From Chamaelirium japonicum (lineage: Eukaryota > Streptophyta > Magnoliopsida > Liliales > Melanthiaceae), in contig OX393554.1 in NCBI GenBank assembly GCA_947650365.1, positions 34,180,204 to 34,244,203 on the forward strand: a stretch of DNA of 64,000 bases, read 5' to 3'. This document shows positions 53,834 to 63,416 of the stretch, one piece after another. The notes under the pieces were generated by a model, which was given only the letters and a program-made list of their open reading frames with translations, was not told the DNA's origin and searched no databases. Within the stretch, counting starts at the first letter, position 1. Every line of letters begins with the position of its first letter. The position numbers and the translations under genes were made by a program.

Positions 53834-54060
53834 AGGGTTGGGAGAGGTCGGGTCCAGCTGTTATCATTTTTTTTACATTGTGATCAGTTAATGGACGAAC
53901 GATTGAGATCTAGTCACGTGGCTGGTAGCCTATTTTTAAATTAGGCTGTCAGTCCATACCTCGTATTATCTCTCTCTCTCACCACTCCGTGCATCAGATG
54001 CACGCACCTAGTGTATCGGACGGCTATGGACCGCACAAACCGCAGACCGCACCTAAGCAC

Positions 54061-54209
54061 GCACGCACACACACACACACACACGCACACACACACACAC
54101 ACACACACACACACACACACACACACACACACACACACACACACACACACATATATATATATATATATATATATATATATATATATATGTATATATAGAG
54201 AGAGAGAGA
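54061..54209. repeat. Compound (CA)n(TA)n(AG)n microsatellite
   Basis: A CA run of about 90 bp, a TA run of about 37 bp, and an AG run that ends exactly where the TIR element begins. Confidence 0.95.
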
Positions 54210-55273
54210 GAATACGGGGTATGAGCTGACAGCTCATTTGGGCATTTGGGCTGTCAGCTCATAGCCATCCGATCTTGATCAACCACCGTCCGTTTAAAAA
54301 AACAAAAAAACACCGAAACAAAACCACTATACACACTCTCTCTCTCTCTCCTTCGCTGAAGAAACCCGACCCTGACCCCTGCGCCCCCCTTCCCCTCAGA
54401 CCCGGTCCCCTCCGGCGCTGCGCGGGACTCCGGCCCGGCCCCCTCCGACTCCGGCGGCTGCGCGGGACTCCGGCCCGGCACCCTCCGACCCCAGCAGCTG
54501 CGGCGCCCCCTCCGACAGCCCTGCGCGCCGGTCCCCTCCGACTCCGGGGCATTTGGCCCATCTCCGGGCCCGGCCCCCTCCGACTCCGGCGGCTGCGCGG
54601 GACTCCGGCTCGGCCCCGGCCCCTCCGACCCCAGCAGCTGCGGTGCCCCCTCCGACAGCCCTGCGCGCCGGTCCCCTCCGACTCTGGGGCATTTGGCTCG
54701 TCTCCGGGCCCGGCCCCCTCCAACTCCGGTGGCTGCACGGGACTCCGGCCCGGCCCCCTCCGACCCTGGTCCCCTCCGACCCCAGCAGCTGCGCCCCCTC
54801 CGACAGCCCTGCGCGCTATCCCTCCGGGGCTGCGGCCCGCCTCCGACCCCGGTCCCCTCCGGCGCTGCGCCCCCCTCCGACCCCGGCGGCGCGCCGTACC
54901 CCGGCCGGATCCGGTGCCGGTGCCGGAGGGGGGTGCTCGCGATCGGTGGTCGGAGGGGCTGCTCGCGATCGGCAGGGAGAGAGACAGACATCCTGCATGG
55001 GGGAGGGGTGCTGCTGCAGATCGGGGAAAGGGGGGGGTCGCCGTAGAGGTTCGGGGGTCGCCGGCAACGGTCGGGGTTCGCCGGAGCTGCCGGGGGGTGA
55101 GGCGGCTGTAGATCGGGGATGGGGGGGACGGGTGCTGCTGCAGATCGGGGATGGGGGGGGAGGGGTTAAGGTGTATTTTTTTTTTTAAAATGAATGGCTG
55201 ATGATGGCAATCGGAGGGCTGTTAGCTGACAGCCCAAATCAGAAAATGGGCTGTCAGCTCATACCCCGTATTC
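54210..55273. mobile_element. Long-TIR element with a GC-rich tandem core
   Basis: The inverted ends start GAATACGGGGTATGAGCTGA and the pairing continues inward (about 54210-54270 with 55205-55273, imperfect). The element is bounded by AG and CT microsatellites. The core, 54390-54900, is built of near-repeats of CCCCCTCCGACTCCGG, GGCTGCGCGGGACTCCGG and similar phrases. Long ORFs on both strands follow from this composition and are not credible. Confidence 0.8.
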
Positions 55274-55437
55274 TCTTTCTCTCTCTCTCTCTCTCTCTCT
55301 CTCTCTCTCTCTCTATATATATATATATATATATATATATATATATATATATATATATATATATATATATATATATATATATATATATATATATATATAT
55401 ATATATATATATATATATATATATATATATATATATA
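55274..55437. repeat. Compound (CT)n(TA)n microsatellite
   Basis: The CT run is about 40 bp and the TA run about 120 bp. It separates two unrelated palindromic elements. Confidence 0.95.
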
Positions 55438-56076
55438 GGGGACGGGGAGCCTGGACCTCAGGTGCAGCGTCTACGCTGCACCTGAGCCCGGATGCATGAC
55501 ATCTGTCCCAGCCGGCCAAAATCCCGACCGCATACAGCCCCGTCCGCCACCATAATTTCGGCCAAATTATCAGCCGTCCGATCGATCGAATCGAATGGAC
55601 GGCATTCGCCTGAGCCTCGCTGTTATTGTGACGGCCACAGTAACAGCCCGGGTGAATCCCGTCCGTTCGATTCAATCGATCGGGCGGTTGAAAAAAAATT
55701 CGCGATTACTGTAGCGGCTACAGTAATCGCGAGAATGATTTCAACCGTCCGATCGATTGAATCGGGTGGTTGAAAAAAATTTCGCGATTACTGCAGCCGC
55801 TACAGTAATCGCGTGAATCCCTTCAGCCGTCCGATCGACTGAATCGAACGGACGGGATTCACCCGAGCTGTTACTGTGGCCGCTATAGTAACAACGATGC
55901 TCAGGCGAATGCCGTTCGTTCGATTCGATCGATCGGACGGCTGATAATTTGGCCGAAATTATGGTGGCGGACGGGGCTGTATGCGGTCGGGATTTTGGCC
56001 GGCTGGGACAGATGTCATGCATCCGGGCTTAGGTGCAGCGTAGACGCTGCACCTGAGGTCCAGGCTCCCCGTCCCC
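55438..56076. mobile_element. Foldback element, 639-bp near-complete palindrome
   Basis: The left arm begins GGGGACGGGGAGCCTGG and the right arm is its complement, ending CCAGGCTCCCCGTCCCC. Pairing continues through TCAGGTGCAGCG, CCAGCCGGCCAAAATCCCGA and CCGTCCGATCGATCGAATCG to the centre near 55757. Repeated ATTACTGTAGCGGCTACAGTAATCG-like palindromes lie near the middle. It is flanked on both sides by (TA)n. It is non-coding and would fold into a single long hairpin. Confidence 0.92.
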
Positions 56077-56148
56077 ATATATATATATATATATATATAT
56101 ATATATATATATATATATATATATATATATATATATATATATATATAG
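56077..56148. repeat. (AT)n microsatellite between two palindromic elements
   Basis: About 36 AT units. Confidence 0.95.
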
Positions 56149-62200: not shown

Positions 62201-62676
62201 CTGATCTCTCTCTTGATCGATTTGTGAATCGGACGGCTGATAGTGATTTAAATTTGAGACTATGGTGTGTGAAACAGACGGCAATGGCTGATGATCTCTC
62301 TTGATTTTTTTTCTATACATGCCGAATTAATGGTGGGAGGGGGACCAGTACAGGTGGCAGCCATAGGAAAATAACCCTTGGCAAGAAAACGAGTTAATAA
62401 TCGGATAAATACCCAACGTATCCCTAGTTTTTTTACATAAAAACCCTTCAAACGATTATTAAATTTTCTTTTTTACAATCAGGTCGTTCACTAATTTATT
62501 ACTTCCTTCACTTAATTTCATCCCCATATTTCAACTCGATTCAATCTTAGTCATTCCCCTCTTTTTAGATGAATCTCACTCATCCTAACACCAATTTATC
62601 TCATCCCCTCATTCTATCCTCCTCTCAAAAACAGATCCTGACCGTTCTTTGTACCCCCCACAAAACTGTAGCTTAT
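59261..62676. other. Unassigned region with repeated GTAATGCCCGTGC phrase and microsatellites
   Basis: The phrase GTAATGCCCGTGC, then TCGGCACGCAAAAGATTT and GAGGAAAGTGACAATA, occurs at about 59272 and again at about 60435. It is probably the end of one repeat family. A 38-bp phrase is duplicated in tandem near 60258-60335. Microsatellites are (CT)n 59888-59942, (AG)n 61433-61470 and (GA)n 62065-62117. The GC-rich part 61550-61900 gives overlapping ORFs with no recognisable domain. Confidence 0.4.
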
Positions 62677-62710
62677 TATATATATATATATATATATATA
62701 TATATATATA
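62677..62710. repeat. (TA)n microsatellite
   Basis: It sits against the left end of the next palindromic element. Confidence 0.9.
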
Positions 62711-63097
62711 AGGGCTGGGTTCCTATGGCATGTCATAAGGATTACCCTATGACATACGATGAATTAGTAATGCTAGAATGTTTAGAATGTATTGAATTTT
62801 TTTGAGGGTGATCACCTTACCTTAGATAGAATGTTCATAAAAAATCAAAGCATTTTAAAACTTGTTGGGACTTCAAATGTTAGAAGCTTTATCGGCCATC
62901 CATTTTAACCGTTGAACTGAAAACCATCTTTGATGCCTCTAGAAGTTTTAGAATGTGCCGATTTTTTGTGGGGGTCCTATCTAAAATAGGGTGATCATCT
63001 TTATAAAAATTCAAAATATTCTAAATATTCTAGGGTTACTAATTCATCATATGTCATAGGGTACTCCCTATGACATGTCATAGGAACTCATTTACCT
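62711..63097. mobile_element. Palindromic MITE with CATGTCATA ends, flanked by (TA)n
   Basis: The left arm has GGTTCCTATGGCATGTCATA and TACCCTATGACATACGATG; the right arm has CATATGTCATAGGGTA and CATGTCATAGGAACTC. TA runs border both sides. The interior contains weaker inverted phrases around TTCTAGAAGTTTTAGAATG. Confidence 0.8.
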
Positions 63098-63186
63098 ATA
63101 TATATATATATATATATATATATATATATATATATATATATATATATATATATATATATATATATATATATATATATATATATATA
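63098..63186. repeat. (AT)n microsatellite
   Basis: About 44 AT units between two palindromic elements. Confidence 0.95.
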
Positions 63187-63416
63187 CATGAGTTGTGAGC
63201 TGCCGGTTTAGAAAGTGAGTTGCGCTCACTTTGACCTCCCTAGAAGTTTTAGAATTTGATAAAATTTGGGGTGAGGGTGTTGTCTAAGATAAGATGATCA
63301 TCCTCACCCATTTTTATCAAATGCAAAAACTTCTAGGACCATCAAATGGTCAAAGCAAAATCTGTCATCCGCAGTCACCGGCCGTTAACATATGCAAATT
63401 TTGCTTCGACCATTTG
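63187..63416. mobile_element. AGCTGC-family element, left half only
   Basis: It matches the left half and centre of the element at 56403-56796 (TGAGCTGCCGG, GATGATCATCCTCACC, TTTTGCTTCGACCATTTG). It is cut at 63416, where an LTR-like TGTAACATCCC begins. Confidence 0.7.

Follow-up and report, generated by a model that had tools for sequence, protein, structure and literature searches.

An array of probable Mutator-like elements in (TA)n microsatellites of Chamaelirium japonicum

Why do palindromic elements of different families stand in one row in the genome of Chamaelirium japonicum, each between dinucleotide runs, and were the runs there before the elements? A sequence-only reading of a stretch of 64,000 nucleotides (C6:34180204-34244203; hereafter the window) had noticed six such elements. 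It suggested that they share a transposase that targets TA repeats, or else that the repeats arise at their ends as a by-product of insertion. TA-flanked elements are known as Micron in rice and TAFT in maize, and the array described here resembles these in its TA flanks, by description only. We searched the genome (1.52 Gb, 3,253 contigs) for further copies and for a second version of the locus. Our best explanation, to which we assign a probability of about 0.85, is that Mutator-like elements (MULEs), most of them miniature, have (TA)n microsatellites as their insertion targets and build up a modular array, of the type described in print for SaTar, MuTAnT and Ac-mMITE.

Anatomy of the array

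All six elements (E1 to E6) were present where they had first been placed, with bounds that were off by at most 1-2 bases, and two more array elements, E7 and E8, were found beyond these six (Table 1). Dinucleotide runs of at least four units lie no more than 5 bp from 12 of the 12 ends of E1-E6. When the runs were placed independently, at most 4 of the 12 ends fell at a run in 20,000 draws. Circular shifts of the 56 runs (n = 20,000) gave a mean of 0.31; a single shift gave 12, possibly the zero shift, which does so by construction. Contact with dinucleotide runs on both sides, as first proposed, was thus confirmed for all six elements. At E1 and E4 the AG/CT runs sit inside the TA, between it and the element, in the order (TA)n(GA)n-element-(TC)n(TA)n, and beside E3 a TC run is found on the right side only.

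Table 1. Elements, spacers and inserts of the array, in window positions
Feature	Position	Strand	Description	Second contig
Left flank of E1	54086..54209		(CA)33 (TA)18 TGTATATA (GA)n	(CA)33(TA)70
E1	54210..55273	+	GC-rich; ~105-bp imperfect terminal inverted repeats; ends GAATACGGGG/CCCCGTATTC	absent here
Spacer E1/E2	55274..55437		(TC)n, then (TA)62	
E2	55438..56076	+	foldback; arms of 316 nt, 91% complementary; ends GGGGACGGGG/CCCCGTCCCC	absent here
Spacer E2/E3	56077..56147		(AT)35	
E3	56148..56291	+	small, palindromic	
Spacer E3/E4	56292..56401		(TC)11 (TA)32 (GA)12	94-bp fragment, E3-like by eye, inside TA run
E4	56402..56796	+	palindromic; member of E4/E6/E7/E8 core group	
Spacer E4/E7	56797..56925		(CT)n, then (TA)43	
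E7	56926..57440	+	probable fusion: left E8/E4-like, right E6-like	
Spacer E7/E5	57441..57459		(TA)9	82 units
E5	57460..59260	+	taken as internal-deletion derivative of FAR1/MULE-transposase element; 75-bp terminal repeats GGGTTGGGATCC	
hAT-like MITE inside E5	57820..58370	+	8-bp target duplication CTGCCTAG	
Short TA and 3.4-kb segment	59261..62676		two Helitron-like ends	(TA)53 instead
Spacer before E6	62677..62710		(TA)17	
E6	62711..63096	+	palindromic; ends AGGGCTGGG and AGGGAAATG in most of 20 relatives read	
Spacer E6/E8	63097..63186		(TA)45	
E8	63187..63420	+	E4-type; position of right end approximate	

E2 forms a near-complete hairpin. Array elements never interrupt one another in the window, where the only nested insert is the hAT-like MITE in E5. 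This insert has the 8-bp duplication and the short inverted repeats of hAT elements (CTGCCTAG on both sides, inverted TAGGGGTGCAAC) and is missing from five E5 relatives; copies of it with 89-93% identity account for the majority of the 40 places scored with E5 as query. Unlike elements are linked by microsatellites without mutual interruption, which is the arrangement that characterizes SaTar arrays. Elsewhere in the window, long TA runs at 26062-26123 and 40293-40312 showed no match to array elements beside them. To the left of the array, at 53860-53968, a fragment with an end resembling the E1 terminus lies beside a (TC)6 run.

The array elements had been read as unrelated. This is only partly right, as E4 and E6 share a core sequence with each other and with E7 and E8 (approximately 65-82% identity over stretches of at least 74 bp). 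E7 is probably a fusion, as judged from its sequence, of a left part like E8/E4 and a right part like E6.

Target sites and transposase of the array families

Flanks were compared in further copies, which are the best matches to the window's elements and not a random sample. Besides the window's own copy, 27 E1 loci were read (7 plus 20 picked from the match list), together with 20 of 40 scored places for E2, 20 of 40 for E6, and E5 relatives at six loci and on a second contig of the array locus, C270. Termini were counted in the window and at L002-L028 and L037-L106, of which 22 loci had been retrieved on account of the hAT-like element. L001 and L029-L036, which overlap others, were omitted. 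A (TA)n run, either direct or behind a GA run, was found by script at 145 of the 164 termini of this best-match sample and by eye at about 160. The script rejects interrupted runs, and 15 of its 19 failures were reclassified by eye as interrupted TA or GA runs. Four termini were left without TA by eye, namely one in L101 (an E6 copy with TA on one flank and other sequence on the opposite flank), two in L106, where elements are fused, and one in L090. Most copies in this best-match sample therefore keep their TA flanks, and the proposal that several families target TA holds for the sampled copies, leaving aside the claim of a single transposase. The company of other families is also not peculiar to the window, since another array family matched within the fetched stretch at 25 of the 27 other E1 loci (exceptions L004 and L017; nesting was not scored).

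Searches with element ends gave a similar picture. A subterminal 21-mer of E5 occurs at 13 places, and six A/T bases stand outside the tip position in 13 of 13, although the pattern itself demanded A/T at one of the six bases and four of the places are the copies of the window and C270. An exact match to the E2 end followed, six bases outward, by G or C was found 25 times, and in 13 of these cases the five adjoining bases still alternate between A and T. Ten of the 25, as candidates for E2 copies outside pure TA runs, were partly read, three were extended and two were read on both flanks. The copy at C3:54794445-54795151 is directly bordered on either side by TTACTATAA, a perfect duplication of 9 bp, and the 26 and 24 bases of flank that were read contain no TA run. 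At L123 no duplication of 9 bp was seen; ordinary sequence ending in CTATA stands at one flank, and at the other a short TA run leads into a further E2. A target site duplication of 8-11 bp, usually 9 bp, as is typical of MULEs, was hence present at one of the two E2 copies read on both sides. Placement of E2 in Tc1/mariner (Stowaway), with duplication of TA only, was rejected because of the 9-bp duplication at this one copy.

A transposase could be connected to E5. Its relatives L061-L066 (on C6, C304, C10, C8 with two, and C1) contain transposase sequence in six of six cases and run on past the deletion point of E5; the copy on C1 is without the E5 left end. In L061, a MULE domain (PF10551, 1.1e-29) and a SWIM zinc finger (8.7e-6) lie in one frame and a FAR1 domain (2e-7) lies in a neighbouring one. 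C304 has two E5 ends, approximately 4.9 kb apart, that bracket transposase sequence, which tblastn matched in two pieces. One of these ends is in a long TA run and has its tip replaced by TA, and the other has TATAAT in the six bases seen. Because the relatives bear transposase sequence beyond the deletion point, we take E5 to be a deletion derivative of a MULE; judged by sequence, its source would be an element of about 4.9 kb with a FAR1-MULE-SWIM transposase. Of the autonomous partner with shared terminal repeats that had been called for, the search, which covered the E5 family, gave this candidate, a transposase-bearing relative with the same terminal repeats as E5. The termini differ between array families, and one transposase may serve them all. 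For E1, E3, E4 and E6, anatomy and company suggest that they too are MULEs.

We favour the MULE array for three reasons: almost every sampled terminus has TA beside it, a 9-bp duplication surrounds one E2 copy outside microsatellites, and E5 has a transposase-bearing relative. An element would insert inside a TA run and leave TA on both sides, and the flanking TA would receive the next element, so that members of several families would come to stand in line with none inserted into another. The families other than E5 would be MULEs moved by related transposases, the TA runs would precede insertion, and most GA/TC runs would grow by slippage from tips carrying GA. L123 without its 9-bp duplication and two E2 ends at GAGAGA (see below) led us to lower our confidence from 0.88 to 0.85. 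A possible deletion between TA runs in C270 and the (TC)11 of the window's E3 also count against this explanation.

A second contig and the origin of the runs

C270 matches the window from 44137, the start of the fetched stretch, to the window end and differs from it at 148 of 9,776 flank bases (1.5%). It may represent a second haplotype (allele) or else have arisen by recent duplication. Further small contigs might be similar and suit empty-site tests: over the 128 bases read, C311 is identical to C8:65882144. On C270, (CA)33(TA)70 stands directly before E3, E1 and E2 are absent and the TA is unbroken. The 94-bp fragment interrupts the TA that separates E3 from E4, and (TA)53 takes the place of the 3.4-kb segment. 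That segment, at 59271-62676 with one boundary approximate, has an end at its start, on the reverse strand, with GGGCATTACTAGT next to AT and a second such end inside. These ends are presumably Helitron-like. The same kind of end adjoins the TA run of the E5 relative in L061.

An empty site had been proposed as a check on whether (TA)n predates insertion, and the (TA)70 of C270 without E1 and E2 provides one in part, as it is either the state before insertion or the product of a deletion between TA runs. The chance that the contigs differ by loss of elements through recombination between flanking TA runs, and not by new insertion, is in our view only slightly below even, and such a loss would be compatible with the MULE array. 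A single deletion would remove E1 and E2 jointly in one step; the fragment in the TA of C270, which resembles a truncated E3, and elements truncated directly against TA at L014, L003 and L062 point in the same direction. The divergence of E2, on the other hand, needs no age older than the split of the contigs: the window's copy has 7 private substitutions in 639 positions (1.1%), about as expected since the split (1.5% pairwise in the flanks, 1.5-2.9% in shared elements).

It is also conceivable that the TA runs are a by-product, in that elements insert at very short TA sites and gap repair or slippage lengthens these later, as has been reported for TAFT in maize. Run lengths do differ between the window and C270 (9 vs 82 units before E5, 43 vs 60 at another site), and most GA runs appear to be derived from element ends. 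According to the available parts of the reports, the empty sites of maize contained 6-8 bp of TA, which grew longer after insertion (PMC5907723), and MuTAnT empty sites average nine TA repeats against 15 per flank when occupied (PMC4486113). Run length varies greatly between the contigs and therefore says little about run origin. Against a by-product speak the E2 copy with the 9-bp duplication (n = 1), which has no TA run in 26 and 24 flanking bases, the 70 TA units on C270, where E1 and E2 are missing, and the TA runs without array elements in the window. We consider a by-product origin of the TA runs unlikely.

For the GA/TC runs the same idea fares better. GA runs of at least three units were found at 40 of 85 sampled termini in E1, E4 and E6a and at 0 of 79 in E2, E5, E6b and the GGGGCATGC-type E3, in classes defined after the flanks had been seen. 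By class, these were 28 of 52 termini for E1, 6 of 23 for E6a and 6 of 10 for E4, against 0 of 43 for E2, 0 of 19 for E6b, 0 of 7 for E5 and 0 of 10 for the GGGGCATGC-type E3. At E1, E4 and E6a the GA runs adjoin the element and have the TA run on their outer side. GA/TC runs thus mostly accompany tips carrying GA, and we infer that most of them arose by slippage from such tips. Exceptions are two of 25 E2 ends (C1:38113101-38113126 and C8:62345875-62345900), which lie directly beside GAGAGA. The window's E3 is another, having ends unlike the counted GGGGCATGC type and (TC)11 at its right (18 units in C270). Pre-existing GA/TC as the usual target is disfavoured, since C270 has no GA or TC run at the place of E1 and E2 and the runs are class-specific in the sample; the two GAGAGA ends are not accounted for. 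Formation as a by-product of insertion, which the sequence-only reading had considered for TA repeats, fits most GA/TC runs, with these exceptions. For TA runs it is disfavoured by the E2 copy with the 9-bp duplication and by the pure (TA)70 contig, the latter possibly a deletion product.

Mixed ends and known systems

Ends and cores of different families also occur in combination. L015:544-943 and L016:1971-2370 are complete chimeras with an E4-type core between E2-type ends and TA on both sides. L003 and L014 have the same combination with the right end truncated against TA, and L012 has an E2-type end on the left only and an E4-type core. E4-type cores between E2-type ends mean that ends and cores are not tied together, and they contradict the earlier statement that the families share no ends. 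TA runs might then serve as exchange points, at which MULE families swap ends and cores and elements are gained, lost or truncated via recombination or break repair, so that TA-mediated shuffling would shape the array as much as transposition does. This would agree with the chimeras, with the elements cut short at TA and with the lack of both E1 and E2 on C270, and we nevertheless regard so large a role for shuffling as improbable. That circular elements with microsatellite filler recombine homologously into genomic TA runs, a speculative proposal in the available text of PMC5907723, is very improbable here: it would account for L123 without a 9-bp duplication and, as argued there, for the lack of nesting and the varied flanking microsatellites, but one copy has a standard 9-bp duplication and tip slippage accounts for most GA/TC runs.

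The MULE array has close counterparts in print. SaTar elements of guayule, rice, sorghum and citrus are, in the available text of PMC5907723, non-autonomous MULEs with microsatellite flanks that are mostly (TA)n. Members of unlike families stand in arrays without nesting, a minority have 9-10 bp duplications, and fused elements occur as well as defective autonomous MULEs with microsatellite flanks (PMC5907723). These features are alike by description and not by sequence; as far as that text goes, two contigs of one locus and the mixing of cores and ends are found only here. MuTAnT of Medicago truncatula, in the accessible portion of PMC4486113, has foldback long inverted repeats with GGGG tips, a TA target, a 9-bp duplication outside microsatellites and a 4.9-kb element with a MULE transposase. 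It is one family, compared with several here, and the likeness is again descriptive. Ac-mMITE of pineapple occurs in TA-flanked MITE clusters with 9/10-bp duplications, and has GA on the 5' side and TC on the 3' side, attributed to slippage from GA/TC tips (PMC8449440, as available in part). No autonomous element is described in those parts, whereas E5 has a transposase-bearing relative. A literature search among sources available in part gave no precedent closer than these three.

The general phenomenon is already in print, and the locus adds further members in another genome. It extends microsatellite-targeted MULE arrays to this genome and provides, with E5, a family whose transposase-bearing relative can be named. 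It also offers a near-identical pair of contigs that differ at TA runs by the presence or absence of two elements, a fragment and a Helitron-like segment; contig pairs of this kind are what is required to decide whether the TA runs came first.
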